Assembly (NCBI GenBank): GCA_903884505.1
Contig: CAISET010000019.1
Coordinates: 1 to 34,158 of the forward strand
Length of the DNA: 34,158 nt
Reading direction: 5' to 3'
Source of the DNA: an uncultured Microcaldota archaeon
Lineage (GTDB): Archaea; Micrarchaeota; Micrarchaeia; Burarchaeales; Fermentimicrarchaeaceae
Part shown: positions 14,328 to 34,158 of the stretch, piece after piece
Layout: each line of letters starts with the position of its first letter
Numbering within the stretch: the first letter of the stretch is position 1
Position numbers and translations under genes: made by a program
The notes under the pieces: model-generated
Database searches by the model: none
What the model was told of the DNA's origin: nothing
The model's input: the letters and a program-made list of their open reading frames with translations, nothing else

Positions 14328-14477
14328 CTTTTGCCTGCCTTGTTGGGCCTGAAAGCCAGTATGCTTTGAGGAGGAAAGGACGATAGTTATTTATACGAGA
14401 TTGGAGTTAAGTATCTGCTTCTTTTGCGTGAAGACTTAACTTTAAAGATTAACTATTTAAACTCCGAAGGTGATAAA

Positions 14478-14804
14478 TTGAGGGAAGAGAGGCACTGGAC
14501 TGCAAAGCAGGAGGATGTGCGCGTGGATTACCGGTTTGTGAAAGAGGGCGGTGAGGTCGTGTATTTCAGCATTAATGTCTCCATCGTCGGGAAGGAGGAT
14601 CCGGAGGACGTCTACAGGGTGGATACGGCGCACGGGTATTTGCACGAGCAGAGGTTCTGGCGGTCGAATGAGCCAACGCCCATTCCGGAGGAGAGGTTCG
14701 CCAGCTATTCACATGCGTTCTTGTATTATAGAAAGGAGGTTGCGCGCAATTTCATTACGTGGTCGGAGCTTTATAAGGCCCAGGCGGCCGGAAAGGGGGA
14801 TTAG
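14478..14804 (+). CDS. TumE-like toxin candidate
   Basis: The frame of about 108 residues contains VYRVDTAHGYLHEQRFWRSN, then FASYSHAFLYYRKEVARNFI. The Arg-Val-Asp-x-x-His-Gly-x-x-His pattern and length resemble TumE-family (DUF6516) proteins, toxin partners of an HTH antitoxin. The following gene, one base away, is exactly such an HTH protein, which supports the call. The start is uncertain: TTG at 14478 follows GGTGAT (14470-14475) closely, while TTG at 14424 gives 126 residues and would suit a leaderless mRNA from the TATA box near 14385-14397. The toxic function is inferred. Confidence 0.6.
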   Translation: MREERHWTAKQEDVRVDYRFVKEGGEVVYFSINVSIVGKEDPEDVYRVDTAHGYLHEQRFWRSNEPTPIPEERFASYSHAFLYYRKEVARNFITWSELYKAQAAGKGD

Positions 14805-14805
14805 G

Positions 14806-15150
14806 ATGAGAAAAAAAATGAATGCTGTTGAGTTCATGGACAAGCTGCTGGATATCGAGATGGCTCACCCGGGGACGCTGCCTGAGAGGCTGGTGGTCAT
14901 CGGGGCGGCGGATTTGGCGAGGGTTGCGACGCCAGCAAGGATGGAGCTGCTGAGGGAGGTGGAGAGCAGGCCGCCAAAATCAGTGGGCGAGTTGGCCAGG
15001 AGGCTGGGGAGGCCGATTGAGGCGGTTTCGAAGGACTTGCGCGTGCTGAGCGGCTATGGGCTGCTTGAGATGGCGAAGGAAGGAAGAATCAAGCGGCCCA
15101 GGGTGGAGAAGGATTTGCTGGTTGTGCCGCTCCTGACTAAGGGCGCCTGA
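14806..15150 (+). CDS. HTH protein of the HVO_A0114-like antitoxin type
   Basis: The 114 residues have a winged HTH at about 55-105: SVGELARRLGRPIEAVSKDL, then LSGYGLLEM, ending EGRIKRPRVEKDLLVVPL. The C-terminal 'G..KRP.V.YD...V.IPL' ending is characteristic of the archaeal HVO_A0114-type DNA-binding proteins often paired with TumE-like genes. The ATG at 14806 is one base past the stop of the preceding toxin-like gene, so the two should be co-translated. It probably represses its own operon and neutralises the toxin. Confidence 0.7.
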   Translation: MRKKMNAVEFMDKLLDIEMAHPGTLPERLVVIGAADLARVATPARMELLREVESRPPKSVGELARRLGRPIEAVSKDLRVLSGYGLLEMAKEGRIKRPRVEKDLLVVPLLTKGA

Positions 15151-15154
15151 GCCG

Positions 15155-16423: not shown

Positions 16424-16436
16424 AGTTCACCACCCC

Positions 16437-17789: not shown

Positions 17790-17865
17790 GCAATCACGCC
17801 CTACCGAAGCTGGCTTATCGGGTTCTGCACGGGCCGCTTGATAAAGCATGGTGTTGGTTTCAGCA

Positions 17866-17880
17866 TACTTATATAAATAA
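17866..17880. promoter_or_regulatory. A/T-rich box serving both directions
   Basis: ACTTATATAAATAAG is nearly symmetrical. On the minus strand it lies about 25 bp before the ATG at 17849; on the plus strand it lies about 48 bp before the ATG at 17921. It is the likely TATA box for the lipoprotein operon and possibly for the isoprenoid-synthase-like gene. Confidence 0.45.
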
Positions 17881-17920
17881 GGATGTAGTTAAGTATAAGT
17901 AGTCTCCTTCTGGCGTTGTT

Positions 17921-18973
17921 ATGGAGAAAGTGAGGGCTGGTCCTGACAGGCTTGCTGAGCTGCGTAGGGCGTACGAGAGGGTGGAACCCGATGAGGGGAA
18001 GGCGCCGGCAGGGAAGCTGTTCCCCTTCACGCTCCCTGCGCTGAAGTACATGCTCCTCGACGCGAAAGGGAGGGATAAGGAGAGGTTCGAGGAGGCGACC
18101 GGGGAGATGAGGGAGAAAAGGGGAATCGAGATTACACTATGGCCGCGGCTTGCGCTGGCAATGGAGATTTGGAGGAGGAGCGTCGGGGTGGGAAGGGAGG
18201 AGTATGAGAGGAGGAGGGCGCCGGAGATTGCGAACCTGTTCATGGTGTTCTGCGGGATAGGGGACGCGCTGAGCGAGCAGATGATGCTGTCTAAGGAGGG
18301 GAAAAAGGCGCAATACCCGAAGTGCATCTACTCGGCGAAGGTGTATGAGCCGGAGGAGCTGCTTGGCGATTTCGTGAAGGCGATGGAAAGGCTTATCGAC
18401 GAGGCGGAGAAGGAGCCGGGAAGGAGGGAACTGGTGAGGAGGCTGCTGAACGAGAGCATCAGATGGTCCTTTGAGAGCGCAGTGCGCGAGGACGGGCTGA
18501 GGGAGCGGGAGCGGAAGGGAGCGCATCCGTCCGTGAAAGAGGTGCTGGAGGTCCATCATTTGAAGACCGGCGGGAACGTGAAGCTTTTCGTGGAGGCGAT
18601 GAATTTCCTGCATCATTTGGAGAATGAGCCAAGGGCGAGGAAATTTGCAGAAGTTTCGTATGCGATGGGGAGGGCGACGCAGGTGCTGGATGACGCGAAG
18701 GACATTGAGAAGGATTTGAAAGAGGGGTGGCCGAACCTATTTGTAGCCGCGGCAATGGAGTGCGGGGAGATTGGGAAATTGGGGAGTGCCACGGAGGAGG
18801 GGAGGATTCCTGGAAGGTTCGGGAGGCTGGCGTGGCTGCGGGGAAGGCTGCCGAAGACGTATGGGAGGGCGATGGGAGCGTATTACCGGTTCGCGGAGGA
18901 GTGCGAGGCATATTTCGGGGTGGAGTGGAAATTCTACAAGGCTTATTCGATGTGGCAGAAAGACGAGCATTGA
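17921..18973 (+). CDS. Isoprenoid-synthase-fold protein with degenerate first Asp motif
   Basis: The 350 residues are largely helical. VHHLKTGGNVKLFVEAMNFL (about 212-231) matches the KT..LF element of trans-prenyl diphosphate synthases. YAMGRATQVLDDAKDIEKDL (about 246-265), followed by KEGWPNL, matches the second Asp-rich motif DDxxD and the GxPN loop. Where the first DDxxD should be, there is only FCGIGDALSEQMML (about 109-122), with a single Asp. Loss of the first motif argues against ordinary chain elongation. It may be a terpene-synthase-like enzyme, a prenyl-binding subunit or a partner of an active synthase. The ATG at 17921 is the only good start. The neighbours give no pathway clue. 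Confidence 0.6.
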   Translation: MEKVRAGPDRLAELRRAYERVEPDEGKAPAGKLFPFTLPALKYMLLDAKGRDKERFEEATGEMREKRGIEITLWPRLALAMEIWRRSVGVGREEYERRRAPEIANLFMVFCGIGDALSEQMMLSKEGKKAQYPKCIYSAKVYEPEELLGDFVKAMERLIDEAEKEPGRRELVRRLLNESIRWSFESAVREDGLRERERKGAHPSVKEVLEVHHLKTGGNVKLFVEAMNFLHHLENEPRARKFAEVSYAMGRATQVLDDAKDIEKDLKEGWPNLFVAAAMECGEIGKLGSATEEGRIPGRFGRLAWLRGRLPKTYGRAMGAYYRFAEECEAYFGVEWKFYKAYSMWQKDEH

Positions 18974-18982
18974 GAGATATGA

Positions 18983-19008
18983 TTATATATGGCTATAGTT
19001 GTATATAA
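18983..19008 (+). promoter_or_regulatory. Promoter/operator of the RHH-RelE pair
   Basis: TTATATATGG (18983-18992) and TTGTATATAA (18999-19008) form an imperfect inverted repeat around a CTATAG centre. The downstream half is also a TATA box about 24 bp before the ATG at 19027. This is a likely site for antitoxin autoregulation. Confidence 0.5.
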
Positions 19009-19026
19009 CCACGCATAGGTGGTTTG

Positions 19027-19218
19027 ATGAAAGGGGAGATGACGACGGTAATGGTGAGCAAGGAGGTGCGGGACGAGCTGCGGAAGCAGGGGTTCAAGGA
19101 TGAGACCTATGATGTGATAATCCGCAGGCTTATTGAGCTGGCGAAGAAGGACATGTTCATCCAGAGGCAGAAACACATTTTGGAGACCCAGGAGTTTGTT
19201 CCCCTTGAGGAAGTTTGA
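19027..19218 (+). CDS. Ribbon-helix-helix/VapB-like antitoxin
   Basis: The 63 residues begin MKGEMTTVMVSKEVRDELRK and continue GFKDETYDVIIRRLIELAKK. The short N-terminal strand followed by two helices is the archaeal antitoxin layout. The C-terminal 20 residues (QKHILETQEFVPLEEV) would be the toxin-binding tail. The toxin-like gene starts within its last codons, so the two are translationally coupled. GGTGG lies just before the ATG, and the promoter carries an inverted repeat. Confidence 0.75.
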   Translation: MKGEMTTVMVSKEVRDELRKQGFKDETYDVIIRRLIELAKKDMFIQRQKHILETQEFVPLEEV

Positions 19219-19483
19219 GGTGCTTTTATCCGCGGTTGCCGTGAAGGAGCTCAGGCTGCTTAGCGAAGGCGAGGCAAGGGGGATTAAGGAGAAGATGGGG
19301 GCATTGGCGGAAGACCCTTGCAAGCCGCGCCCTAAAGCGGACATCAAAAAGCTGGCGGGTACGAAACCGGAATTTTACCGCCTCCGTGTTGGCGAGTACC
19401 GGATCATTTATTGCGTGCAGGAGAATAAAGTGAAGGTGACGGAGATAATGAGGCGGAGCAGGGGATACGGCTGGCTTGAGTAA
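19205..19483 (+). CDS. RelE-family toxin
   Basis: Ninety-two residues from the TTG at 19205 begin MRKFEVLLSAVAVKELRLL and include KKLAGTKPEFYRLRVGEYRI, then IYCVQENKVKVTEIMRRSRG. This is the standard RelE order: beta strand, two helices, 'L.G....YRLRVGDYRIIY' strands and a final strand with basic residues. RelE toxins cut mRNA on the ribosome. The start overlaps the antitoxin stop by 14 bp; a GTG at 19220, preceded by GAGG, is the alternative. It is paired with the RHH antitoxin. Confidence 0.85.
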   Translation: MRKFEVLLSAVAVKELRLLSEGEARGIKEKMGALAEDPCKPRPKADIKKLAGTKPEFYRLRVGEYRIIYCVQENKVKVTEIMRRSRGYGWLE

Positions 19484-19530
19484 GAGGTAAATGCTGTTTT
19501 AGGGTATTCCAGCCGGCATGGGAAGTAGGC

Positions 19531-21228
19531 TTATCTGACGAGTTGCCTGAGCCTGCCTGTGAGGCGGCGGAAGGCGCTTGCAGGCGCGGAGTCCTCCGAG
19601 AAGAGCAAACTCCTTAGGAGAAGGAGGTTGAGGGGGAGGCGGCCCTTTGCACGCTGCGGAATGGGCTTGAGGGGGGAGAGGGCGCGCTGTTTTGGAAGAT
19701 TAGCGGGCTTGAGAGGGGCGAGGAGGAGATTTGCGCGCTTGAGCTGGCGGAGGTTTTTGCGGAGGGAGGTTTTGAGGGTTGAGAGGCGCTTCTCCATCTT
19801 CGGGAGGGAAACTTTGAGGGATTTGAGCCTTGCAGTGGAGCTTGCGAGAGAATTGAGCTTTTTGCGGGAGTCGCGGAGCTCTGCGCGGAGTTCATGAAGC
19901 TTCTCCTTGGTGCGGGCTGCGGATTCCTTTAGGAGATGGAGCTGTTCCTCGAGCTTTTCCCTGCGACTGCTGGCGGATTTCTTGAGGAGACGGAGCTGCT
20001 CTTCCAACTCCTTAATTTTCTCCTTAAGCTCCTTGATTTTTTGCTTGAGCTGTTTCACCTGTTTGAGCGAGGTTTCGAACTGCTGAATCTTCTCTTTTGT
20101 GGATTTAATTTTCTTGAAGAGGCCGAAGGCCTCGAGCTGGAGCTGAAGCTGCTTTTTCCTGAGGAAGGAAGAATGGGCGGTTAGCTGCTGAGCTAATTCA
20201 ATGCGCTGGGAATTAGTCAAGGTGCTGGGAGATGGAACGCGGAGGTTTGCGGGTGATTGGGTTTCGAGGATTATGGTTTGCTCAAGTTTTGGGGGCGTTT
20301 TGGAAAGGAGGGAATAGGGAAGCTGCGACGTATTTCCGGCGGTTGCCTGGGGAGTTGCGGTGAGTAGAAGGGAGAGTTTTGTTTCTGTAACTGCTGCCGG
20401 AATCGCCCGTCTTTCGTACGCTGCGGATTGCTGGAGCGCGGAATCGGCATCCGTTATGGGAGCGCTTCGCTGGGCTTGCGCCTCTGAGGATGGCTGGATG
20501 CGGAAGGCTGCTTGCGGAAAGAGTTGCAGATGGTCAAGGATGGGGCGCAGGCTGCTAGGGGCGGCTTCGTGGATGCTGGCGGCTGCAGGAACGGGCGGGA
20601 TGAATTGCGTGAGCGTGAATTCCGTTGGAATCATGAGGGGCTGTTCAGGCGGAGTTACTGCGCCGATGAAGGGGATGATATACCTTGCGTCATAGGCCTG
20701 GCCATCGGTGCGGACGTCGGCCTTGCCTGCGCAGCCGGCGAGAGTGGTTTTGCCGCCCTTTTGGTTTGGGAGGTCTTCGATTGCGAACTCGAAGCGCAGC
20801 TCGGCCTCCACATCCGAGTTCGCTTTTACGTTGTCCAGCTTGAGGAAGGCCCTGCTGTCCGCGGATTCTATGGTTGGGAGGCCTCCGGAGAGGTAGAACT
20901 GCCAGCCGTAGCCCTGGCTGTTTTCCGAGTTTTTGCCGATGCCCTTGAGAGCATAACCATAGGTTTCGTGATGGTAGTATGTGGCGCCAGGGATGAACGT
21001 GGATGCTACTAGGAGGTCAACACCTTTTGGAACCTGTATATTCAGGGTGTATTTCTCTGAACCTGTGTTTATGGTGAGTTTTAGATTCACCATTTCAGTC
21101 GAAGGATTCGCCATCAGTTTCCCCCAGTCAGGAAAGACTATTGCGCGAACCTCCTCGCCCGTTAAGATTTTCATAGCTGGAGCAGTCGCAATAGTAGTAG
21201 AAGCTTTCGTAGCAGTCTTCGTGATCAT
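19531..21228 (-). CDS. Unknown protein with long C-terminal coiled coil
   Basis: In this 565-residue protein, residues about 40-190 form a beta-rich globular domain (VNLKLTINTGSEKYTLNIQV, YGWQFYLSGGLPTIES). The alternation 'ltI..g...y...V..G...L........' and GYGWQFYL.GG vaguely recalls DUF4430-type domains, but I am not sure. Residues 190-360 are low-complexity and Pro/Ala/Ser-rich. Residues about 370-500 are a long Lys/Glu/Leu coiled coil (KQLKQKIKELKEKIKELEEQ). The C-terminus is very basic (RRLTGRLRQLVR). I see no signal peptide. A start at the internal Met19 is possible. The function is unknown, perhaps structural. Confidence 0.7.
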   Translation of the reverse strand: MITKTATKASTTIATAPAMKILTGEEVRAIVFPDWGKLMANPSTEMVNLKLTINTGSEKYTLNIQVPKGVDLLVASTFIPGATYYHHETYGYALKGIGKNSENSQGYGWQFYLSGGLPTIESADSRAFLKLDNVKANSDVEAELRFEFAIEDLPNQKGGKTTLAGCAGKADVRTDGQAYDARYIIPFIGAVTPPEQPLMIPTEFTLTQFIPPVPAAASIHEAAPSSLRPILDHLQLFPQAAFRIQPSSEAQAQRSAPITDADSALQQSAAYERRAIPAAVTETKLSLLLTATPQATAGNTSQLPYSLLSKTPPKLEQTIILETQSPANLRVPSPSTLTNSQRIELAQQLTAHSSFLRKKQLQLQLEAFGLFKKIKSTKEKIQQFETSLKQVKQLKQKIKELKEKIKELEEQLRLLKKSASSRREKLEEQLHLLKESAARTKEKLHELRAELRDSRKKLNSLASSTARLKSLKVSLPKMEKRLSTLKTSLRKNLRQLKRANLLLAPLKPANLPKQRALSPLKPIPQRAKGRLPLNLLLLRSLLFSEDSAPASAFRRLTGRLRQLVR

Positions 21229-21314
21229 TCGAGATAGCCCTATTTAAGATATTTGTAACTGGACTTTAAAATGCTTACAATCTAATGATGCACGGCGATT
21301 ATATGAAATTGTTT

Positions 21315-23252
21315 CTAATTAATACCGAGTTGTCTGCATAATTTAAGTAGCTCGGTTCTAAATTCATCGATTTGGGGATTATTTGGAAAATACGCGCTGA
21401 CCACATTAATGAGCGGTACTGCTTCTTTGAAGTTTTCTTCAGAAAAGGCACGCAGACAGCGTATTAATGTGTTGTGCCCGTTATTTGGTATAATTTTCCT
21501 GAAAATAAAAGGTAGATTGCCGGCCCTAATTCCTTGATCCAGATGATGAACGATCCCTACATAGGTGTCTTCGCCGTACAAAAATGTAATGATACGGGTG
21601 GGCGTTGCTGTTTTAAATTTGCATATTTTGGCGTCACGTACACAACATGTGGCGTTGCAAGAAATACTGTCCTCAGGTAGTATGACAAAATCCAGTAACG
21701 GAGCTTTACCATTTTCCAGCATATACTGTGCTACTGCAACTGTCAAAAAAATTTCTGGATTCCCAGGGTATTTTTTTGCACCTTTTTGCTCACGGGTGAG
21801 CAATGACAACAAAAGGTTTTGTGACCACTCAGGCATAGAAGCGGAGTACGAGTCAAACAATTTCTGTGCTTTCTCATAATCACCAATTAGAAAAGTGAGA
21901 TTTATGAGTTGCATCATTTCGAATGGATGATACATGCGCCGTTTAAGTGTATATGTCTGCTCTTGTGCGGTTTGTGTGGTAGAAGAAATTATTGATTCGT
22001 GGCAACTCAAAAACTTTATGTCTGGGACCTTATCTGATGGAATAGAACGCAAGATATCCGCTCTAAATTCGGCTTTCTGTTCTAGCAAGTTGCGCATCTG
22101 TTCATAGTCTTTCTGGTGAAATGCAATACAATAGTAGCGCATTTTAAAAATAGTGTCAGAAATAGAAATTAAAGGTCTGGTACTTTTTTGGCAAGCCGCT
22201 CGGATGGCGCTCGTTTTGATGATCTCATTGCATTTGGAAAATGCTTTATCTGCCTTTTCATAATTTTCATAATGGAATAACGCACATAATCCGAGTATGT
22301 AATAGCCGATTATGGACTCCCGCGACTTTTGAATCACTTTTAAAGCAGCAAGTTCAAGTTTTCCAAAATCAGTCCCAGTACGCAATAATGCAAACAATCT
22401 TGCATCGTTTGAATGAGAGTCTAATATGTCAGAACAAGCATCAGTTATGTCAATTATCTTTTGAAGATCGCCATTATTCAAATAATACTGAGTTAGATTG
22501 GATATAGCAAAAGGATGTCTCAGTTTAGTGGCTATGCTTAGTTGCTTTAAACCTTTCTCCATTTGGTCTTGATTCAAGAGTCCAGTACCACTATTATTGA
22601 GATATGAAGCAAATAATTCGGAGGCTGAAAGAGCTTTGATCTTCGTAAATTTTACACCTAGTCCACCGATAGGTATTGAAAGATCTATCAAAACTAAAGC
22701 TAGATCAGGATTGTCTTCGAGCTTTGAGACCGCGAGCACTTCGCAACGAAATGTCTTATCCAATGCAAACAGGGGATGCGCATAGCGTGCAAGTCGTTTA
22801 TCCGTAGTCAAAAAACCAGCACATACGTGCCCTAACGGTGCCCCAGATTCATCCGCTGCGACATTGAAAGCTAGGGCGCGCTTCGCGTCTTTATTAAGGC
22901 CAGCTTGCTCACAAATCGAAATAAACATATTAACGAATTCAAGGCAGTACGCTTTTTTTTCGATTCCAATTTGTTCAGGAATTAATGGTTGTCCATCTTT
23001 ACGCGGCATTGACATATCGAAACAAAAACCGTACTCACCACCGACTTTTATACGCTTGAACAGATCGATTACTGCCAAATCGCCATCTTTAGAAAACTCT
23101 TTCTCAAGGCGCCGTGCCTCATCGATAATCCAACCGGAAGCTTTAAGCGGCTCTATTCTCTCATTCTTAAGTAGGTCGCAAGCTAATTTCGCAAAATCAT
23201 CTCGATATGTGGATATATGCACGCGTTGAGTTTGTTTGGAATTAGTATCCAT
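21315..23252 (-). CDS. Transglutaminase-like domain plus TPR-like repeats
   Basis: In this 645-residue protein, the N-terminal region has KKAYCLEFVNMFISICEQAG with Cys103, GHVCAGF with His142 and HPLFALDKTF with Asp165. The Cys-His-Asp order and spacing fit the papain-like transglutaminase fold; activity as protease, crosslinker or neither is unknown. From about 230 to 640 there are helical pairs of TPR type (HPFAISNLTQYYLNNGDLQK, FHYENYEKADKAFSKCNEII, FLIGDYEKAQKLFDSYSASM). The gene starts 8 bp after the stop of the metallopeptidase gene, so they are one operon. The operon is clearly A+T-richer than the flanks, suggesting horizontal transfer. Confidence 0.7.
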   Translation of the reverse strand: MDTNSKQTQRVHISTYRDDFAKLACDLLKNERIEPLKASGWIIDEARRLEKEFSKDGDLAVIDLFKRIKVGGEYGFCFDMSMPRKDGQPLIPEQIGIEKKAYCLEFVNMFISICEQAGLNKDAKRALAFNVAADESGAPLGHVCAGFLTTDKRLARYAHPLFALDKTFRCEVLAVSKLEDNPDLALVLIDLSIPIGGLGVKFTKIKALSASELFASYLNNSGTGLLNQDQMEKGLKQLSIATKLRHPFAISNLTQYYLNNGDLQKIIDITDACSDILDSHSNDARLFALLRTGTDFGKLELAALKVIQKSRESIIGYYILGLCALFHYENYEKADKAFSKCNEIIKTSAIRAACQKSTRPLISISDTIFKMRYYCIAFHQKDYEQMRNLLEQKAEFRADILRSIPSDKVPDIKFLSCHESIISSTTQTAQEQTYTLKRRMYHPFEMMQLINLTFLIGDYEKAQKLFDSYSASMPEWSQNLLLSLLTREQKGAKKYPGNPEIFLTVAVAQYMLENGKAPLLDFVILPEDSISCNATCCVRDAKICKFKTATPTRIITFLYGEDTYVGIVHHLDQGIRAGNLPFIFRKIIPNNGHNTLIRCLRAFSEENFKEAVPLINVVSAYFPNNPQIDEFRTELLKLCRQLGIN

Positions 23253-23260
23253 GTAATCAC

Positions 23261-25318
23261 TTATTGATTCGTGGTTTTATTTGCGTTGGACTTAAGGAAT
23301 TTTATTGCCTCTTCAATTTTTTGAGGATAGGTTAAATTGCGCGCGGTGTACTTTAGTAAACCGGTTTCGGCATCAGGTTCTAATTGCCTGAGACCGAACT
23401 CATTGCTGAATTTTGCGAAATAACCTCTAACTAAAGCAATCACATTTTCACGAGTATGCGGTAACTTATTAATACGAATAGTTTCTGTTAACATAATAAG
23501 GACGTATGCGGCTTGACCTACGGTGGGTCTGAAAATTCCTAAATGCTCTAGGAGATAAGGGACAGCGTGAAATAGCTGTTCTTTATATGCTTGCTCTGTC
23601 TTGTCCGATGAGTCTAATCTGGCAACGTAACTCAGAAGTTGTGCATGCTTCTCTGGACGGTACAATTGGGGAAATAACTTATCTTTAACCTCTTCCATAA
23701 AGTTTTGAACACTATATTTCACAAAAGGATTATTGGCCGCATTATTAGGGCCGAACTGCTCGGCAACTTGTTTTGAGATGTACTCGCAGAGAGTTTCGAT
23801 AGTCGGTTGGACTAAATACTCGTCTTCATATGTATGAGATTGCTTGTTAATCCGTCTTGCTATCTCGGCTGGGCTGCTGGGAAATGCAAAACGTTTCTCC
23901 AATCTTAATGATAAGTCAACAATTTTAACCAAGCGTGAACGCTGATAATCGGTTGCGGGAGGCCAATTCAGTGTAATGTATTCTGTTACTGCCCGAATAG
24001 TCATAATTTCTGAGAAATCCGATTGGGGTGGGGTTGCAACCTTATTGGCGCGCAGAGTAGCGATGCGGTTTGCTTCTTCTTTCGGGCTTAGTTTTGAAAT
24101 TACGAGGCGGACAGTTATTCCTTGTTCTTCGGGTTGTCCGGTTCCATGATTCTGTTTGCATTCTACGGATAGTGAATCCTTCTTTGCTTTGACCTGATCG
24201 AAATGGCTTCCCGTGCCTTCAACTGCGCCTATGTCATGCTGGTCCCAACCATGCGAATAAAGGACATCCACGGGGCGTGGCAATCCATCTCGTTCGGCAT
24301 ACGCGACAATGCCTATCTCTGGACTGAGGTCGAAACTTAGTGACGGAAAAATGGTATTGAGAGTATCAACCGCCGCAATAAGTTCTTCGGCACGCATACG
24401 ATATGCTGTGTCCGATTCTTCAAGTAAAATCATTGTGCCAGGAATCTTTAATGGTTCGTCTAAGTCTGGCTTCTGTTCTGCAGGTAACTGCGCGGCAATG
24501 CGATCAAGTATGCCACCATCAGCTGCAGCTACTTCCCAGCCTTGGAGCTCGGCACCACCTGATGGATTCGAGCGCGGTGCGATCAACTCGTCGAATGCTA
24601 TATTCGGAGACAGGTAATCAAACGAGTTTCCGATACCATCAAGTGAACCGGAAGCCATAACTGAGTTGATGATTACCTGATGTCCAACAACTGACTCCAG
24701 TTTTTCGAAAAAATCGAAGGCAGGTTTTTCCGATATTTCTACCTGATTTGCGCTTATGCCGGCAACTTCGTTCAGAACTTTAACTGCCAAGTAATCAATT
24801 GCCCCCTCTTGGAGACGCCCCACATCCCCGCAGTTTGTAGCCGTATCCCGTATGCCGCAAAATGCGTGTAAAACCTCATGGATAGTAGTGGCCGCGATGT
24901 CCACTATGCCCTTAGTTGGATCTGTTTCTAAGTAAGCAGCGTAAGCTTCCGAATTTATGCATAACGTGTGTGAATTTGGATCGAACCTGCCTAGAATATG
25001 CCCCTCAGGTTCCTTATTATAACTAGCCGTATATTCTTCACACGCCTGGGCATCATCGATAAATTTTAGTTGAAATTGCTCTGCATCTTGATTGAGCAAT
25101 CTGAGTGTTGCCTTTGCTGAGACTATGGCGGCATCCCTAAGGACTGTTTCTTCCCATTTGTCCTTGGCCCAATCGCGATACTGCGCACTCCCTTTTACGG
25201 CACCAAAACCATCTGGACTAATTCCTTTATGCTCTAGATAACCTGAACTCTCGAGCAGTAGCCGCAAGAAAGGAGATGCGTCGAGTTGCTTGCCATCAAC
25301 TTTCACGCGGAGAACCAA
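23261..25318 (-). CDS. HExxH zinc metallopeptidase-like protein
   Basis: The 685 residues contain TTIHEVLHAFCG with HEVLH at 147-151, and LQEGAIDYLAVK with Glu171. HExxH plus a downstream Glu in an EGxxDYL helix is the gluzincin zinc-site pattern, with Glu148 as the catalytic base. The remaining 500 residues are not recognised; they contain helical segments (ERNRIATLRANKV-like, RLVKIVDLSLRLEKR). There is no signal peptide, so it should be cytoplasmic. The start is a TTG at 25318 with GGTGA 5 nt upstream, 12 bp after the zinc-ribbon gene's stop. It is co-transcribed with the transglutaminase/TPR gene. Confidence 0.7.
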   Translation of the reverse strand: MVLRVKVDGKQLDASPFLRLLLESSGYLEHKGISPDGFGAVKGSAQYRDWAKDKWEETVLRDAAIVSAKATLRLLNQDAEQFQLKFIDDAQACEEYTASYNKEPEGHILGRFDPNSHTLCINSEAYAAYLETDPTKGIVDIAATTIHEVLHAFCGIRDTATNCGDVGRLQEGAIDYLAVKVLNEVAGISANQVEISEKPAFDFFEKLESVVGHQVIINSVMASGSLDGIGNSFDYLSPNIAFDELIAPRSNPSGGAELQGWEVAAADGGILDRIAAQLPAEQKPDLDEPLKIPGTMILLEESDTAYRMRAEELIAAVDTLNTIFPSLSFDLSPEIGIVAYAERDGLPRPVDVLYSHGWDQHDIGAVEGTGSHFDQVKAKKDSLSVECKQNHGTGQPEEQGITVRLVISKLSPKEEANRIATLRANKVATPPQSDFSEIMTIRAVTEYITLNWPPATDYQRSRLVKIVDLSLRLEKRFAFPSSPAEIARRINKQSHTYEDEYLVQPTIETLCEYISKQVAEQFGPNNAANNPFVKYSVQNFMEEVKDKLFPQLYRPEKHAQLLSYVARLDSSDKTEQAYKEQLFHAVPYLLEHLGIFRPTVGQAAYVLIMLTETIRINKLPHTRENVIALVRGYFAKFSNEFGLRQLEPDAETGLLKYTARNLTYPQKIEEAIKFLKSNANKTTNQ

Positions 25319-25330
25319 GAAGTCACCCGG

Positions 25331-25555
25331 TCAGTCCCAATAACCAGTAATTATAAAATTCGAATTATCTGCACCGCATTTTGGACAGACAGTTGGGATA
25401 TTTTGGAGATGATTTCCGGTGTAATACAATTTTTCAGCTTCGCCTCTTGAAATATGTTCAGACTCCATTTTGCTTTTTATCCAGCCAGGAGTGTGGTGAA
25501 GTGGACCGATCAAAAACTTTGTCCCGCAGATTTTGCACGCGTATCCGGTTGCCAA
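25331..25555 (-). CDS. Small zinc-ribbon protein
   Basis: The 74 residues carry CKIC (about 7-10) and CPKC (about 57-60) at the two ends, giving one Cys4 zinc ribbon with a long insert that contains LHHTPGWIKSKMESEHISRG. It is the first gene of the metallopeptidase/transglutaminase operon. The TTG start at 25555 is preceded by GAGGT at a spacing of about 7, and a TATA box lies at 25601-25612. It may bind nucleic acid or the two larger partners; the function is unknown. Confidence 0.7.
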   Translation of the reverse strand: MATGYACKICGTKFLIGPLHHTPGWIKSKMESEHISRGEAEKLYYTGNHLQNIPTVCPKCGADNSNFIITGYWD

Positions 25556-25599
25556 TTAGTTACCTCGTTTTCCACCCTCTGACTCTAATCCGCGAGTTT

Positions 25600-25612
25600 C
25601 AAGTATATAATA
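25600..25612. promoter_or_regulatory. TATA box between the zinc-ribbon operon and a small plus-strand ORF
   Basis: The stretch reads AAGTATATAATAC on plus and GTATTATATACTT on minus, so it is nearly symmetrical. It is placed for the minus-strand operon (about 50 bp from the TTG) and about 32 bp before the plus-strand ATG at 25640. Confidence 0.45.
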
Positions 25613-25639
25613 CCTATTTCTCCGAGGCAGGATATACAA

Positions 25640-25738
25640 AATGTTATTCCGCCGCAGACTGGAACCGGTAAAAGTGCTGCACAAGCTTGATGCATGCGAC
25701 TGCGAGATAGTCAAGAACAGCGAGAATATGCTAGTGTG
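25640..25738 (+). CDS. Possible 32-residue peptide gene or remnant
   Basis: The frame translates MLFRRRLEPVKVLHKLDACD and ends ENMLV. A TATA-like box about 32 bp upstream would give a leaderless mRNA. No ribosome site or similarity was recognised. It could be the start of a truncated gene, given the broken HEAT-gene tail just downstream. The rest of 25556-25858 holds only that tail and the promoter. Confidence 0.3.
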
Positions 25739-25796
25739 AGCGTACTTCTTAACTATTGCAAGGCGATCAGGCTGATGTCAGTAAGGTAATCGTGCC

Positions 25797-25855
25797 TAAA
25801 CCTGCCTTGGAGAAATCATCCTGAGCGCGGTTGCGGCCTCGTGCTGCACGCGCTT
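25797..25855 (-). pseudogene. Duplicated 3' end of a HEAT-repeat gene
   Basis: On the minus strand this reads KRVQHEAATALRMISPRQV and stop, identical in protein to the last residues of the HEAT gene at 31877-32503. At DNA level 52 of 55 bases of the core match (25801-25855 versus 31882-31936). The differences, and one more in the last codon, are all synonymous and the stop is kept. The upstream part of the gene is missing; the frame begins 3 bp after the stop of the last Cys-rich paralog. It is a truncated paralog whose tail evolved under coding constraint. Confidence 0.8.
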
Positions 25856-25858
25856 TAT

Positions 25859-26566
25859 TCAGGTTGGGCGGGCGTGTTCACAAAGCTGGCCGGGGGAGCA
25901 GAGGGTGGAATTGCAAGATGAACAAAATGCATGGCATGCTTCCTCAAAGAATGGAGGGTACTGCGACTCGAATCCCTGAGTTACAACCACGTTGATAAGG
26001 ATGTTTTTACGGATCATCGCATCGCCAGAACTCGCGTATATCTCCGACCAGGTCGTATTACAATCTCCCTCTCCTATCCCAACTGAACGCACTGCTCTGC
26101 CGCAGCCTACGTCCATGGGGCTCGCATTCCTAAGCCTCGCCTCTATTTCTGCGCATATGTTTGCATTGCCGCTTGCGCAACTGATCTGAAATTCGGCTTC
26201 GTTAGAGTAGCATTGCTCGGTTAGATTGCAGTACATCGCAGTAACGTTGTTGTATGTGCAGGCGCAGGCCTTCGGGTCTTCTGCCGGTTTGCAGCCCCGG
26301 CAATATTCCTCCAAGGTGCTGTAGCAGACGAAGGTCATGTTGCTGAGGTCGCAGGAGTAGCCATCGCAGTAGACGCCACCGTACTTGTCTGAAGATGCAT
26401 AGTAGCAGCCTTCACCTATGCAGGTGCGAGGATCGGAGGCGCCGCCGTAGACGACGTTCTGTGGCTTTTCAAACGGCTTGAAGAGGACGACGGCTGCGGT
26501 AATGGCGATAAGAAGAAGAGCGATGAGGAGAACGAGACCGGTTGCGAGCAGATGGCATTTCTTCAT
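25859..26566 (-). CDS. Cys-rich membrane-anchored protein, paralog 1 of 4
   Basis: The 235 residues have an N-terminal hydrophobic anchor (about 8-30) after a short basic start (MKKCHLLA). Then comes the conserved block FEKPQNVVYGGASDPRTCIG, with EGCYYASSDKYGGVYCDGYS and CRGC, ACAC pairs. The C-terminal half keeps the pattern C..FC..CNSTLC.P.QLCE.AR. The Cys count is high and largely conserved among the four copies, so extracellular disulfides are likely. It is last in the operon. The DNA of its conserved block is closest to that of paralog 4. I do not recognise a named family. It is followed by the HEAT-gene tail. Confidence 0.75.
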   Translation of the reverse strand: MKKCHLLATGLVLLIALLLIAITAAVVLFKPFEKPQNVVYGGASDPRTCIGEGCYYASSDKYGGVYCDGYSCDLSNMTFVCYSTLEEYCRGCKPAEDPKACACTYNNVTAMYCNLTEQCYSNEAEFQISCASGNANICAEIEARLRNASPMDVGCGRAVRSVGIGEGDCNTTWSEIYASSGDAMIRKNILINVVVTQGFESQYPPFFEEACHAFCSSCNSTLCSPGQLCEHARPT

Positions 26567-26599
26567 TCGGATTCCTTTATGACGGTTGATATGTATGGA

Positions 26600-27325
26600 C
26601 TATGAGGACTGGGCATGTTCACAGATTTTGCCCGGCTGGCATAAGGACGACTCGCACTTCGTACATAGAGCTTTGCAGGCTGTCTCAAAAGTGGGTTTTG
26701 GCGGCTCGAACCAGTTAAGAAGACTTGCTCTACTGAAAATTTGCAAACGAACCGAGTCGTTTGCAGCATCGTAAATATCATTCCATGTTTTGTTTGCACA
26801 TTCTCCACTCTGTAAGCCTCTAATGCTCACTATCGCATCATTACAGCCATATTCATAATCTGCCGGACTCGCATTCAGTATTCTCTGCTCCATCTCCGCG
26901 CATCCTCTCACGACGTCGGTTACGCAACCTACTTGGTATTCCGCCTGGTTGCTATAGCAGCTCTCGTTGAGGGTGCAATATCTCGCTGAAACGTTGTTGT
27001 AGGTGCATGCGCATGCTTTAGGGTCCTCTTGCGGCCTGCAGCCACGGCAGTATTCATCGAGCGTGTTGTAGCAGATGAAGGTCAGGTTGCCAAGGTCGCA
27101 GGAGTAGCCGTCGCAATAGACGCCGCCGTAGCGGTCGGATGACGCGTAATGGCAGCCTTCTCCTATGCAGGTCCTTGGGTCGAAGGCGCCGCCGTAGACG
27201 ACGTTCTGTGGCTTTTCAAACGGCTTGAAGAGGACGACGGCCGCTATGATAATGATTACGAGGATAAGCAGCGTTGCGGCTGCGAGAATTGGGAGGCTGA
27301 GCGCGAGGATGTGGCGTTTCTTCAT
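26600..27325 (-). CDS. Cys-rich membrane-anchored protein, paralog 2 of 4
   Basis: This 241-residue protein has the same layout: basic start MKKRHILA, a long anchor helix (about 7-32), the block FEKPQNVVYGGAFDPRTCIG with CHYASSDRYGG, then the Cys-rich region with CRGC, ACACTYNNVSARYC and the C-terminal ACKALCTKCESSLCQP. The C-terminal half (about 125-230) differs more between copies than the N-terminal 115 residues. Its conserved block is closest to that of paralog 3. It was probably produced by tandem duplication. The gap to the next gene is 33 bp. Confidence 0.78.
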   Translation of the reverse strand: MKKRHILALSLPILAAATLLILVIIIIAAVVLFKPFEKPQNVVYGGAFDPRTCIGEGCHYASSDRYGGVYCDGYSCDLGNLTFICYNTLDEYCRGCRPQEDPKACACTYNNVSARYCTLNESCYSNQAEYQVGCVTDVVRGCAEMEQRILNASPADYEYGCNDAIVSIRGLQSGECANKTWNDIYDAANDSVRLQIFSRASLLNWFEPPKPTFETACKALCTKCESSLCQPGKICEHAQSS

Positions 27326-27337
27326 TGAATCAACTGA

Positions 27338-28054
27338 TTACATCTGCCGTGCATGTTCGCAAAGTTGGTTTGGCTGGCATAGGGTGGAGTTGCAGAAAGA
27401 ACAGAAAGAGCGGCAAGCTTCTCCGATGCCGGATAGCGGGGGTTCAAACCCTTGAGTCAGGAGAATGTTCTCGGCAATGTCCGAACGGATTGACGCGTTT
27501 GCTCCGGAGTAAATTTCAATCCAGCTTTTATTACATTCCATTACGGTTAATCCCCTCACACTGACTATGGCAACATCGCAACCTTCGTCCATTGGACTCG
27601 CGTTTCTTAGCCTTCCCTCCATCTCAGCACATGCCCTTGCAGTGTCGGTCACGCATCCTATCTGGAACTCCGCCTGGTTTGCGTAGCACCGCTCATTCAT
27701 GCTGCAGTATCTAGTCGAAACGTTGTTGTAGGTGCATGCGCATGCCTTCGGGTCCTCTTGCGGCCTGCAGCCACGGCAGTATTCATCGAGCGTGTTGTAG
27801 CAGATGAAGGTCAGGTTGCCGATGTCGCAGGAGTAGCCGTCGCAATAGACGCCGCCGTATCTATCGGAGGATGCATAATGGCAGCCTTCACCTATGCAGG
27901 TTCTTGGGTCAAAGGCGCCGCCATATACGACATTCTGCGGCTTTTCAAATGGCTTGAGGAGGACGAAAGCAGCTATGATTATGACTGCGAGGATAAGCAG
28001 CGTTGCGGCTGCGAGAATTGGGAGGCTGAGTGCGAGCATGTGGTGGTTTTTCAT
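27338..28054 (-). CDS. Cys-rich membrane-anchored protein, paralog 3 of 4
   Basis: The protein has 238 residues from the ATG at 28054, which is preceded by GGAGG at a spacing of 8; the longer frame from 28069 overlaps that site. It begins MKNHHMLALSLPILAAA, then the anchor, the FEKPQNVVYGG block with CHYASSDRYGG, and the usual CRGC and ACAC pairs. The C-terminus is ACRSFCSFCNSTLCQPNQLC in pattern. Location and role are as for the other copies: anchored, outside the cell, unknown ligand. Confidence 0.78.
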   Translation of the reverse strand: MKNHHMLALSLPILAAATLLILAVIIIAAFVLLKPFEKPQNVVYGGAFDPRTCIGEGCHYASSDRYGGVYCDGYSCDIGNLTFICYNTLDEYCRGCRPQEDPKACACTYNNVSTRYCSMNERCYANQAEFQIGCVTDTARACAEMEGRLRNASPMDEGCDVAIVSVRGLTVMECNKSWIEIYSGANASIRSDIAENILLTQGFEPPLSGIGEACRSFCSFCNSTLCQPNQLCEHARQM

Positions 28055-28093
28055 GCTAAGTTCCTCCATGATGGTTTAAGCTGGGCGAGTTTA

Positions 28094-28816
28094 TCACGTG
28101 GAGCGAGCATATTCACATAGATTATTCGGCGTACAAAGCGAGGAATTACAAGAAGCGCAGAACCCGCTACACGTTTCATCAAAGTTAGGTCGTGGCGGTT
28201 CAAGTCCCCCAACCAAACCAACATTATGGAAAATCTTTGACTTAATCGTTTCATTGGCACTCGCATATATCTCCGCCCAAGTTTTGTTCCTGCACTCCTC
28301 CTCTTTTAATCCCCTAATCGATGCCACGGCTTCGTCACACCCGTACTCTAGATCCGCAGGACTTGCATTCCTAAGCCTTGCCTCCATTTCAGCGCACGCT
28401 GCGGCGGGATTAGACGTGCAATTGACTAAGAATTCAGCCTGGTTAGCATAGCATCTTTCATCCATGCTACAGTACCTCGCTGAAACGTTGTTGTAGGTGC
28501 AGGCGCATGCCCTTGGGTCTTCCTGCGGTTTGCAACCTCTGCAGTATTCCTCTAGGGTATTGTAGCAGACGACAGTCATATTGCCGATGTCACAGGAGTA
28601 GCCGTCGCAGTAGACGCCACCGTACTTGTCTGAAGATGCATAGTAGCAGCCTTCACCTATGCAGGTGCGAGGATCGAAGGCGCCGCCATATACGACATTC
28701 TGTGGCTTTTCAAATGTCTTGAAGAACAGGACGGCTGCGACGATGATGATTGCTATGAGGAGAACTGCAGCTGCGAGGATTGGGAGGCTGATGACGAGAA
28801 TGTGGCGTTTCTTCAT
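28094..28816 (-). CDS. Cys-rich membrane-anchored protein, paralog 4 of 4
   Basis: The 240 residues begin MKKRHILVISLPILAAA, with an anchor at about 7-32, then FEKPQNVVYGGAFDPRTCIG with CYYASSDKYGG. The C-terminal block has TCSGFCASCNSSLCTPNNLC. It starts 5 bp after the stop of the 997-residue secreted protein, so translation is likely coupled. The conserved block is closest to paralog 1, giving an outer-pair/inner-pair pattern across the array. The function is unknown; adhesion or surface-layer association is possible. Confidence 0.78.
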   Translation of the reverse strand: MKKRHILVISLPILAAAVLLIAIIIVAAVLFFKTFEKPQNVVYGGAFDPRTCIGEGCYYASSDKYGGVYCDGYSCDIGNMTVVCYNTLEEYCRGCKPQEDPRACACTYNNVSARYCSMDERCYANQAEFLVNCTSNPAAACAEMEARLRNASPADLEYGCDEAVASIRGLKEEECRNKTWAEIYASANETIKSKIFHNVGLVGGLEPPRPNFDETCSGFCASCNSSLCTPNNLCEYARST

Positions 28817-28821
28817 CTAAA

Positions 28822-31815
28822 TCAACTCCATTCAGGCTTAAATTCGATATAAACGACTGTGTAAGTAATGACTTTGTTGTTGCCCGTTAGTTGAATTTTT
28901 AGATAGCCGTTTTCGCGGGAAAGTATCGGCGAGCCAAGTGGAACGTCGTAAAAATAATCGTCGTATTTTAATCGTTTCGTTTCACCCAGTTTTGTATCCG
29001 GCGACACAAGCACTACCCTGCTGACGTTGTATCCTTCGGGAATCCTGACTTTGAAATAGTAGTCAGCCGGGACGTCGTTGTTGAAGAGGATGGGGTCCAG
29101 GCAGGTGCCGTAGGGCTTTGTGCGCTCCTCAGGGCAGATGACGCGGGTGTTTATCACGTGGAGGATGCGGGCCTGCTCTCCCTGCGGGCCGGGGAGGCGG
29201 TAGAGGACCGTGTAGGGCTCGTCCTGGGCTTCTGCGGCGCAGGATTGCCCGTCCGTGCCGCAGTATTGAAGCTCGCGCGTGTTGATGAACTCTGAAAGCG
29301 CGGAATGGTAGAGGAGGTCCTGGGAAACTTGTGTGGAAAAGATGGGAAGGTCCGGAGTTGACGCTGCGTCGCGCATCGCGTTGTAGTGCTGGAAAAGGAA
29401 ACGAGTGTCCTGGTCGGAGCCGTCGGTCTGGACCATGAGGTCGTTTTGGTAGTGGACCTCCATATTAACCCTGTTGGACCAGGCGATTGCAGTGAGGACG
29501 CCGCGCATCCAGGCGGGGCGCTGCGACTGGGTGTAGGGGAAGCCTAGGAGGGAGCGCCGCATGTCCGTCTTCATCGGCTTGAAACTCGCGTTCCAGTTCG
29601 TGTAAGCGTAGCGGGCGAATGCACCTTTGGTCAGGAAGAATTGGTCGGAATTGTAGACGTCGGAGGCGGCGTAGAGCGAGTTCCAGCCAGCATCCGCCGC
29701 TGGGACGTAGTCGCTGATTATCATGGCCTTGTCTCCGGAAGCGCGCATCTGCTTCCTGGCTGCAAGCAGGGTGCCGGAGATGGTGTCAAGCGTCTTCTGA
29801 GGGTCTCCGGCGCAAACGCCGTTCTCGGTGGCACCGTAGTCCGTGCTGGCCGGGCTTGTGGCCCTTATCCCGGAGGTGAGGTCGTTGTTATCCGCCGGAG
29901 TCCCGTAGCTCATGTCGGCCCTCCCGACGTCGTCGAAGAGTATGCCATCGAAGTTGTAGTTCTTTGCGAGCCAGCCTGCCTCATGGGCGAGGTGGGCGGA
30001 GTAATCCGGGTCTCCGCTGTAATTGTCATCAAGATTTGTGGTTGCGCTTTCCGGAGAATCTCCGCAGAAGGAAGTTTCTACGTCTATGTCTGCAAGGCTG
30101 GAGCCGATATTCCGCTCCACGAAGCGCACGCGGCGGGGCGCGCCGTTCTCGAAGCGGACGTAGGATGGCGATGAGGCATTCTGGTGCGCGACCTGGAGCT
30201 CATGCCGGCAGCAGGAGTATGGAATGAGATGGTCCCAGCAGGTATCGAGCGGGCCGTCGCATTCGGCGGCGAGAGTTGCTGGGGAGTAGATGAACATCGG
30301 CTCCACGTAGCCAACAACTTTTAGGCCGTAATTCTGCTGCGCCGTGCTGACAATGCTGCGGATCTGGTCCCTTGCCGGCTCCAAGCCGCCAGACTGCTTA
30401 ACAACTGCCTCGGGCGGGTTGGAGTAGTGGTAATCGCTGGTGTTGCCGGATGGAATCCAGGAGTTAATCGTTGTCAATTGGTTGGCGCCTAGCCAGTTGT
30501 ACTGGTAGTATTCGACTACTATGTAAGCCGTGTTGAAGCCATAGCTGCGGATGTCATCAAGCGCGGTTTCGTAATCGGAATAGTCGCCTCTGCCATTAGA
30601 AAGCATCAGGGGATTTGCGATGTTCAGCATGCGCATGTCCCTCGTCCAAGCCGGGACGCCGAAGTCGTCCACGAAAAAGGCGTATTCCGCGGTTTCATTG
30701 GCGTTCCTGCGGTTGCATTCCGCGGACTCGTTTGTTGGCAAGCCCGAGCAGTTCTGCTCAATCTTGACAGTGTACCTTCCTGGCGGGAAGCCGGAAAGGG
30801 GGATTGTGAGATTGAGGTCGGTGTAGTTTGTTCTGCCTATGGCGATTGGGCTATTGAACGATTTTGTAGTTGGGCCGCTTAGGGTTATGTTCAGATTCGC
30901 GCAAAAAGACCTGTTCGCAGAATTCATGAAAACAGCATGAAGCTGCAGCTCGTCCGTGGGCGTGAAGACCCGTTCGTATTGCTCCTCGCCAGTGGCATTC
31001 TTGGTCGTGTAGATTACTGGTTTCGGAAGAAGCCCGTTAAGCCTGCAAAAAAATGGGAGCTCGATTTTGGGCAGCACGACCATGTGTAGCATATGCCATT
31101 GAAACTGGTCCTCGTCCATACTACGGGCCATTGCTGGGTCGTGGGCCATCTCATCATATTTTGAATGATTTCGGACTTCGTCATGCAGTAGGGGATCATC
31201 AACCGACCCGCAAGCGTAAACAGGTGCCAAGAAATAAGGTGGGTCGATAACGTCTGGGTTGGTCGCATTCGGATTCAGCCTCGTACGCGTGTCTATACCC
31301 GGAATCAGCATCAGCAAAAATAGTTTTGTTCTCTTAATTTCCACTCTGCTGAGATCGATGGCATCGCCAGAGAGTCCCCAGCCGTATTCGAAGCAGGGGG
31401 TGTGATAAGGAGTGTTATTGCTCCAAGCGTATGGATCTTTGAAGCAGGGGAATTGCTCCCAGCTCGGATCATAATCGGGGAATTGGCCTTCGGGAAGAAA
31501 AGTGCTGTTCGCCCCGCACCAGGGATCATCACTTATGCCACATGTCTCACAACGGTTATCCCAGCAGAATATGCAGTCTTTGAATATACTTCCCACATTC
31601 CTGCCATGGCCATCCCATACCCAGTAGTTAAAATCGCAGTATGTGTAATTCTCGTCTGTGCCCAACACCATGGAAACGTCATATTTGATGTATATCAGAC
31701 CGTCCGCAGTTACATTAACGACCGATACGGTCACGTCTGGATTCGGGCGATTGTCTGCATTGGCCAATAGTGGAAAGAGGAATATAACCGCAAAAAGGAG
31801 CCCACGAAGGGACAT
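28822..31815 (-). CDS. Large secreted protein with glycosidase-like TIM barrel
   Basis: The 997 residues have a signal peptide MSLRGLLFAVIFLFPLLANA. The first 400 residues are beta-rich, with a Cys cluster at about 65-100 and an Ig-like segment (TIPLSGFPPGRYTVKIEQ). From about 420 to 800 a TIM-barrel-like region contains YGFNTAYIVVEYYQYNW, GLKVVGYVEPMFIYSP and NFDGILFDDVGRADM (about 622-636). The Asp pair after strand four or five resembles the nucleophile position of GH66-like or related glycoside hydrolases. The C-terminal domain (820-997) is beta-sandwich-like. It may cut or remodel an external glycan. A TATA box (TTTTTATTAC, minus 31841-31850) lies about 30 bp before the ATG. It heads the operon of four Cys-rich proteins. 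Confidence 0.65.
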   Translation of the reverse strand: MSLRGLLFAVIFLFPLLANADNRPNPDVTVSVVNVTADGLIYIKYDVSMVLGTDENYTYCDFNYWVWDGHGRNVGSIFKDCIFCWDNRCETCGISDDPWCGANSTFLPEGQFPDYDPSWEQFPCFKDPYAWSNNTPYHTPCFEYGWGLSGDAIDLSRVEIKRTKLFLLMLIPGIDTRTRLNPNATNPDVIDPPYFLAPVYACGSVDDPLLHDEVRNHSKYDEMAHDPAMARSMDEDQFQWHMLHMVVLPKIELPFFCRLNGLLPKPVIYTTKNATGEEQYERVFTPTDELQLHAVFMNSANRSFCANLNITLSGPTTKSFNSPIAIGRTNYTDLNLTIPLSGFPPGRYTVKIEQNCSGLPTNESAECNRRNANETAEYAFFVDDFGVPAWTRDMRMLNIANPLMLSNGRGDYSDYETALDDIRSYGFNTAYIVVEYYQYNWLGANQLTTINSWIPSGNTSDYHYSNPPEAVVKQSGGLEPARDQIRSIVSTAQQNYGLKVVGYVEPMFIYSPATLAAECDGPLDTCWDHLIPYSCCRHELQVAHQNASSPSYVRFENGAPRRVRFVERNIGSSLADIDVETSFCGDSPESATTNLDDNYSGDPDYSAHLAHEAGWLAKNYNFDGILFDDVGRADMSYGTPADNNDLTSGIRATSPASTDYGATENGVCAGDPQKTLDTISGTLLAARKQMRASGDKAMIISDYVPAADAGWNSLYAASDVYNSDQFFLTKGAFARYAYTNWNASFKPMKTDMRRSLLGFPYTQSQRPAWMRGVLTAIAWSNRVNMEVHYQNDLMVQTDGSDQDTRFLFQHYNAMRDAASTPDLPIFSTQVSQDLLYHSALSEFINTRELQYCGTDGQSCAAEAQDEPYTVLYRLPGPQGEQARILHVINTRVICPEERTKPYGTCLDPILFNNDVPADYYFKVRIPEGYNVSRVVLVSPDTKLGETKRLKYDDYFYDVPLGSPILSRENGYLKIQLTGNNKVITYTVVYIEFKPEWS

Positions 31816-31876
31816 ATGGTAGAATTTAGCGTAGGTGTAATAAAAATCTGCTTACACCGGCAGGGTGATGAAGGGG

Positions 31877-32503
31877 CTAGACCTGCCTTGGGGAAATCAT
31901 CCTGAGGGCGGTCGCGGCCTCGTGCTGCACGCGCTTGTCGTGGTGCGTCTCGAGGCTCTGGAGGATTTCAACGATGTGCGGGCTTTTTGTTTCCCTGCCT
32001 ATCGTCCCTATGGCCCAGGCAGCGCTCCAGCGGACGGACGATTCCTTGTCATGGAGGAATGAGGCGATGAGCGGAATGGAGGGCTCGTCGCCCATGCGGC
32101 CGAGCGCCTCGACCATGTGCTCCTTTGCGGAGAGGTCGTGCTCCAGGTGAAGGGCTTCGCGGAGCTTGGGCGCTGCGCGGGATGCGCGCACTGCGCCGAG
32201 GAAATGCGCGGCTTCGGAGCGCATCTCCGGGTTGGGGGAGGAGATGCAGGAGATGAGCGCGGTTATTGCCTGCGCTGAGCCGATGTCGGCGAGCGCGCGC
32301 ATGGCCGCTGTCCGGACTTCCTTGGCATCGTCCTTTAGCGCTTTTGTGAGCGCGGGGACGGCTTCCACGTTCTCGACGCGGCCGAGGCCCTTCGCCGCAT
32401 TCTCGCGGACCTTCGCGTACTTGTCCCTGAGCTTTGAGAGGATTTTCGCGAGCTGCTCGCGCTTGAGCCTTTCGCGGTGAGGGGGTTGTTCAATGTCTGC
32501 CAT
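31877..32503 (-). CDS. HEAT-repeat (PBS-lyase type) protein
   Basis: The 208 residues form about five or six repeats of roughly 31 residues, e.g. KVRENAAKGLGRVENVEAVP, EVRTAAMRALADIGSAQAIT, EMRSEAAHFLGAVRASRAAP and SVRWSAAWAIGTIG. The conserved 'VR..AA..LG.I' marks the PBS-lyase HEAT type, a protein-binding scaffold rather than an enzyme. The TATA-like TATTAAAAGG (minus, about 32526-32535) lies 25-30 bp upstream. Its 3' end is duplicated at 25797-25855 on the other side of the secreted-protein array. Confidence 0.85.
   Translation of the reverse strand: MADIEQPPHRERLKREQLAKILSKLRDKYAKVRENAAKGLGRVENVEAVPALTKALKDDAKEVRTAAMRALADIGSAQAITALISCISSPNPEMRSEAAHFLGAVRASRAAPKLREALHLEHDLSAKEHMVEALGRMGDEPSIPLIASFLHDKESSVRWSAAWAIGTIGRETKSPHIVEILQSLETHHDKRVQHEAATALRMISPRQV
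31882..31936. repeat. 55-bp direct repeat with 25801-25855
   Basis: 52 of 55 bases match, within the end of the HEAT gene. The two copies lie in the same orientation about 6.1 kb apart and bracket the whole secreted-protein operon. Confidence 0.85.
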
Positions 32504-34028: not shown

Positions 34029-34158
34029 TTTTTAGTTGAGGTTTTTACCATATGCGCCGGCGAGCGTAGCGAAGAGCGAGCCGCTGAAGCTGGCGAGCGA
34101 CGGCGCATGGGAAAAAAGTCATTTTTAGTTGAGGTTTTTACCATATGCGCCGGCGAGC
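34029..34158. repeat. Direct repeat, period about 93 bp, with internal hairpin
   Basis: A 37-bp stretch (34029-34065), starting TTTTTAGTTGAGG and ending GCGCCGGCGAGC, is repeated exactly at 34122-34158, where the window ends. Between them ATGCGCCG (34051-34058) has its reverse complement CGGCGCAT (34102-34109), so each unit can form a hairpin with a GGCGAGCG-rich loop. It lies just after the thioredoxin gene. It could be a dispersed or tandem repeat, or act as a transcription end signal (A/T runs around it). Confidence 0.7.

Follow-up and report, generated by a model that had tools for sequence, protein, structure and literature searches.

The secreted-protein operon of this archaeal contig is bounded on its far side by a 60-base fragment of the neighboring HEAT-repeat gene, which is probably a scar of horizontal acquisition and, as such, an ordinary trace of genome plasticity of a known kind. 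The fragment thus probably marks as acquired DNA the operon, whose five orphan products, one large and four small, are predicted to be secreted or anchored in the membrane; it adjoins a second strain-specific block. We favor, at a probability of roughly 40%, the reading that the fragment is a recombination scar and not a working element, left when incoming DNA displaced the end of the resident gene by homology-facilitated illegitimate recombination. If this is true, the locus would extend to an archaeon the displacement of modules behind a conserved gene end, which has so far been proposed for competition loci of bacteria. Throughout, "the window" is the whole stretch of 34,158 nucleotides that was analyzed.

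The intact HEAT-repeat gene (31877–32503, minus strand) encodes a 208-aa protein that matches Pfam HEAT_2 (E = 1.5e-34) and is either the source or an allele of the fragment. By whole-genome search and alignment, the two copies of the repeat lie at 31877–31936, comprising the last 19 codons (190–208) and stop of the gene, and at 25796–25855, both on the minus strand, and agree at 56 of 60 bases (93%). This confirms the preliminary description of this DNA, which had placed the HEAT 3′ end at both edges of the 6-kb operon, with a repeat one base longer than it noted. It also noted that all differences are synonymous and the stop is kept, and this holds: the four differences, in codons 197, 199, 204 and 208, each change a third base without altering the amino acid, and both copies end in TAG. 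When the 81 bases around the fragment were compared with the whole genome, only two places matched at E ≤ 0.001, the second with E = 3.5e-20, and there was no third copy. The longest exact run common to both copies is 23 bp. The edges of the repeat are abrupt on both sides. Of the 20 bases that precede the copies, across the junction 25855/25856, 4 agree, and of the 20 that follow the stop, 3 agree; these alignments are no better than shuffles (219 and 55 of 500 as good, respectively).

As a control, we compared 430 kb of the same genome (about 28%) with itself and collected direct repeat pairs within the same stretch that were 300–25,000 bases apart, at least 35 bp long and at least 85% identical. 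Among the 59 pairs obtained, the HEAT tail (E = 1.5e-18 in this comparison) is the sole one in which one copy covers the stop of an open frame of 150 codons or more while its partner falls outside any such frame. The fragment begins 3 bp past the stop of the last secreted-protein paralog and is in frame with that paralog, a one-in-three chance that we do not read as meaningful. A 32-aa open frame (25641–25739, plus strand) lies between the HEAT tail and the next gene, which encodes a zinc-ribbon-like protein; this frame had no match in 16 other genomes and was rejected as a second gene remnant.

How did the two copies come to differ only at synonymous positions? If all four changes fell in the fragment, the probability of an all-synonymous pattern is 0.003–0.006; if a fossil was free to drift and synonymous changes arose in the gene as well, it is 0.020–0.035. 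Synonymous divergence between the copies is about 0.36 (dS, on 14 synonymous sites), with no amino acid changes. When the ortholog from the relative G003 is used as an outgroup, which is single and distant, two changes are placed in the fragment and one in the gene, with the fourth undecided. Since synonymous-only change is unlikely for a free-drifting fossil, both copies probably diverged mostly as the coding ends of working alleles, for which support is moderate, four differences being few. The preliminary description had gone further, proposing that the fragment was under coding selection after a duplication and was only later truncated. Divergence as coding ends is the part that has moderate support; a truncated paralog is unsupported, and an allele of one HEAT gene, brought in by recombination, would give the same pattern more simply.

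Comparison with G003, which belongs to the same family but another genus, suggests what the locus looked like without the operon. Among 300 other genomes of the phylum, the HEAT protein has two matches at E = 1e-22 or better: a full-length ortholog in G003 (54% identical over 208 aa) and a 38% match to part of a 511-aa frame in G084. In G003, which has a single HEAT copy at this locus, the gene is followed after 59 bp by a 93-aa gene and then by 113-aa, 104-aa and Cys-rich genes. The window carries these four genes in the same order from 14285 to 12756, the first two being 88% and 95% identical, and synteny extends to the thioredoxin and membrane-protein genes that lie on the opposite side of HEAT. 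One exception is a G003 gene before HEAT, presumably superoxide-dismutase-like, that is absent from that place in the window. The HEAT gene and the 93-aa ortholog are thus 17.6 kb apart in the window versus 59 bp in G003. The far edge of the extra stretch is set by the 93-aa gene and its upstream region (14004–14340, minus strand), which align collinearly with the G003 HEAT 3′ flank. Because HEAT adjoins the 93-aa gene in G003 with synteny on both sides, about 17.5 kb (roughly 14345–31876) appears either to have been added after the HEAT stop or to have been lost in G003, with insertion favored. The operon is part of this stretch, which is absent from the G003 locus and is split by the tail into the 6-kb operon and an 11.5-kb part. 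As G003 joins HEAT to the 93-aa gene and not to the DNA directly beyond the fragment, that DNA does not appear to be the ancestral flank.

Two arguments were set aside. That the insertion is precise at the stop could be taken as a sign of site-specific insertion, but the conserved sequence that precedes the next gene in G003 starts 6 nt past the HEAT stop, so any harmless insertion would have to fall within that short gap. We also looked near the far edge (about 14345) for a decayed HEAT tail, a third copy that would show serial insertion at one site, and do not claim one. When the alignment was anchored to the G003 HEAT end, an equal or better score came from 19 of 400 shuffles and from 53 of 400 pieces taken at random from the window; when it was anchored to the window's own HEAT end, it came from 122 of 400. 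Unanchored, 53 of 500 (G003 tail), 360 of 500 (fragment) and 292 of 500 (HEAT tail) were as good, or 22 of 500 once the part alignable with G003 was added.

The operon itself is rare. On the minus strand, the HEAT gene is followed after 61 bp by a gene for a 997-aa protein (28822–31815), then by four tandem paralogs (25859–28816) and, 3 bp later, by the HEAT-tail fragment. The 997-aa protein has a signal-like N terminus by eye, no Pfam, PHROG or NCBIfam match, no relatives in 59 other genomes and no second copy in its own genome. The paralogs (235–243 aa) are Cys-rich with a hydrophobic N terminus, also by eye, and are 62–73% identical to the copy at 26600–27325. They have no match in 300 other genomes of the phylum, so that no other genome searched carries operon paralogs and no donor locus with HEAT followed by the operon was found. 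Searches of plasmids (with the 997-aa protein), viral contigs (997-aa protein and paralogs) and phages (6-kb DNA) also gave no matches. Weak PDB matches over about 31 residues hinted at a likeness of the 997-aa protein to TAL-effector repeats and were taken as chance; a structure predicted without an alignment was unusable (mean pLDDT 35.6).

The rest of the 17.5-kb stretch is similarly strain specific. Directly beyond the fragment lies a block of three genes (21315–25555, minus strand) encoding the 74-aa zinc-ribbon-like protein, a 685-aa protein present in none of 59 other genomes and a 645-aa protein in none of 7. By ORF analysis and profile searches, the remainder (14345–21228) encodes a 565-aa coiled-coil-like protein, a ParE/RelE-like toxin, a 350-aa protein with a weak polyprenyl-synthase match (none of 20 other genomes), two lipoprotein-like proteins with a common block, an HVO_A0114-type helix-turn-helix protein and a DUF7718 protein. 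One of the lipoprotein-like proteins (422 aa) matched 1 of 20 other genomes, G003, weakly and within its first 71 residues only. Overall, for the six kinds of protein tested from the stretch, searches of 7 to 300 other genomes per protein found no relative over the full length. The genes for the lipoprotein-like neighbors (15155–17849) share a block of about 300 bp that is 89–92% identical while the remainder differs, suggesting domain shuffling. GC3 is 0.80 in the HEAT gene, 0.55–0.67 in the operon, 0.36–0.40 in the three genes beyond the fragment and 0.64–0.77 further on. Because GC3 drops from the operon to the block beyond the fragment, the two may have different histories, although low GC3 is not unique to the stretch: a gene outside it (10567–11238) also has a GC3 of 0.36.

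The reading that we favor for these features is displacement in several steps. Strain-specific DNA would already have been present between the HEAT stop and the 93-aa gene. DNA would then have arrived from a relative in which the HEAT 3′ end is followed by the secreted-protein operon. At one end, homologous exchange inside the resident HEAT gene would have joined it to the chromosome; at the other, illegitimate joining would have occurred just past the stop of the last paralog. The resident gene would now have the donor's version of its end, and its own last 19 codons and stop, with the old downstream DNA, would have been shifted 6 kb away. We infer the donor, the order of events and the mechanism; this reading is supported by the G003 arrangement, in which HEAT adjoins the 93-aa gene and the genes to either side match, and by the failure to find the operon proteins in relatives. 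Synonymous divergence without amino acid change would suit two alleles better than an old, free-drifting fossil. Further, one edge lies inside the HEAT gene, 3 bp past the stop of another gene and with no similarity across it, and the other edge coincides with the HEAT stop, beyond which the neighbors of two alleles could differ. Against displacement, the undisturbed order comes from one diverged outgroup alone, and loss in G003 is an alternative. The process is also infrequent: 3e-10 per recipient is given for homology-facilitated illegitimate recombination in E. coli (PMC3240628), and in three other bacteria it is put orders of magnitude below homologous recombination (PMC5361080). Among the open-access papers listed in our literature searches, we saw no archaeal case.

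A close likeness is to Vibrio T6SS effector loci, where displaced 3′ ends are described and homology-facilitated illegitimate recombination is tentatively proposed by the authors (Kirchberger et al., 2017; PMC5361080), with the same displaced-end origin also suggested there for Rhs loci. As at those loci, a gene 3′ end and the old downstream genes lie behind a new module that carries the gene's conserved part. Unlike those loci, the present one involves a gene for a HEAT-repeat protein, with no amino acid difference between its two ends; its operon lacks a recognized toxin or immunity gene, and we describe one example in an archaeon and not repeated arrays. We favor displacement because no mobility gene was seen in the segment, its gene-internal edge shows no homology and its footprint is similar to that in Vibrio.

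It is also possible, and nearly as likely, that the operon entered by integrase-type or single-crossover insertion, with a truncated paralog weaker than either. In the insertion scenario, a 6.1-kb circle with a HEAT-tail attachment site would have entered the HEAT 3′ end; the circle's tail would have replaced the gene end, leaving the old end at the far side as a second attachment site. Site-specific integration classically leaves a direct repeat, such as the 60-bp one here, where a gene ends. Direct repeats flank the segment as attL and attR would, with one completing the target gene; HEAT is left whole, and the repeat ends precisely with its stop. An attachment site derived from another allele would be expected to show synonymous-only differences, and a 408-aa tyrosine recombinase on another contig (C36) might act in trans. 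Integrated elements described for Thaumarchaeota, 14 of 68 of which use protein-coding 3′ ends, share the 3′-end direct repeat, the intact gene and the strain-specific DNA between repeats, and the repeat length here is within the 29–69 bp cited for crenarchaea (PMC6563490). However, Thaumarchaeal attachment sites are described in the same paper as generally short, and, unlike those elements, the segment here has no integrase, replication or transfer family match and no terminal repeats that we could find, its repeat copies differ at 4 of 60 bases and its outer flank does not appear to be ancestral.

The search for mobility genes covered 15 proteins of the stretch in Pfam and PHROGs, and 10 of these in NCBIfam. 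Although the scans matched the ParE/RelE-like toxin and the HVO_A0114-type protein, they matched no integrase, transposase, relaxase, replication or Cas1 family, and the five operon proteins matched no recombinase, replication or transfer family. Tyrosine-recombinase matches lie elsewhere in the genome only. The operon is separated from the repeats by 3 bp at one end and 61 bp at the other, which leaves little room for mobility genes. Direct and inverted repeats at the segment ends are no better than shuffles (93 and 185 of 300 as good), the latter also unlike a target-site-duplicating transposon such as a casposon; across 12 comparisons involving the operon segment or the low-GC block, the best (4 of 300 shuffles) is not significant after 12 tests. 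Neither exact tail pattern occurs in any viral contig, and the lack of a supported third tail near 14345 also weighs against insertion.

A doubtful alternative is that HEAT, perhaps with the operon, was tandemly duplicated and the second copy later deleted down to 19 codons and the stop. All-synonymous differences would suit two working copies, and the four tandem paralogs of the operon show that tandem duplication occurs here. However, no close second HEAT copy was found among the candidates scored (52 of 70 from a first look): the best other match in the genome is 34% identical, and the 13 others listed are at 30–36%. Codons 1–189 left no trace in window positions 1–31800 (best blastn E = 0.63, best tblastn E = 0.87), and the 997-aa gene lacks a second copy. 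When contigs were scanned with the HEAT protein, in a search that is limited to close relatives, the one match was a bacterial HEAT-like protein (31%). The preliminary description had suggested that the operon inserted into, or was duplicated with, a HEAT paralog, and that relatives be compared for one or two intact HEAT genes; insertion after the HEAT stop fits G003, whose one copy stands directly before the 93-aa gene, and the paralog is not supported.

An improbable extension is that the HEAT 3′ end is, in this archaeal lineage, a recurring docking site for integrase-less cassettes, each bringing a synonymous gene end and pushing older cargo downstream, like an integron without its integrase; this idea would take in the other HEAT genes of the genome that have integrase-like neighbors. 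Least likely of all is an assembly artefact in which two strains' versions of the locus were misjoined at the repeat. In its favor, the genome is in 37 contigs, of which the window is one whole contig, but the longest exact run of 23 bp is below usual assembly k-mers and contamination is listed as 1.87%.

Other HEAT-repeat loci in the genome have features of their own. At L034 (1450–1890, contig C7) and L035 (1489–1920, contig C30), other HEAT-repeat genes are directly followed, or overlapped at their 3′ ends, by short Phage_integrase-like genes of 146 and 143 aa. These proteins may be non-catalytic, since the first arginine and the tyrosine of what we take to be the recombinase motif seem, by eye, to be lost. 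At L039 (contig C22, 18.5–38.4 kb), an array of HEAT-repeat frames contains common stretches of about 40–170 bp with 85–95% identity. Several of these span the point where one frame ends and the next begins, as though the array were a place of recombination between gene ends.

Elsewhere in the window, three small paralogs (4729–5020, 12103–12394 and 1572–1775) lie near regulators that we take to be Lrp/AsnC-like, and a 99-aa G003 protein matches them at 77%, 75% and 42%, respectively. Finally, the contig ends in an exact 37-base direct repeat (34029–34065 and 34122–34158, 93 bases apart), which is perhaps the reason that the assembly stops there.
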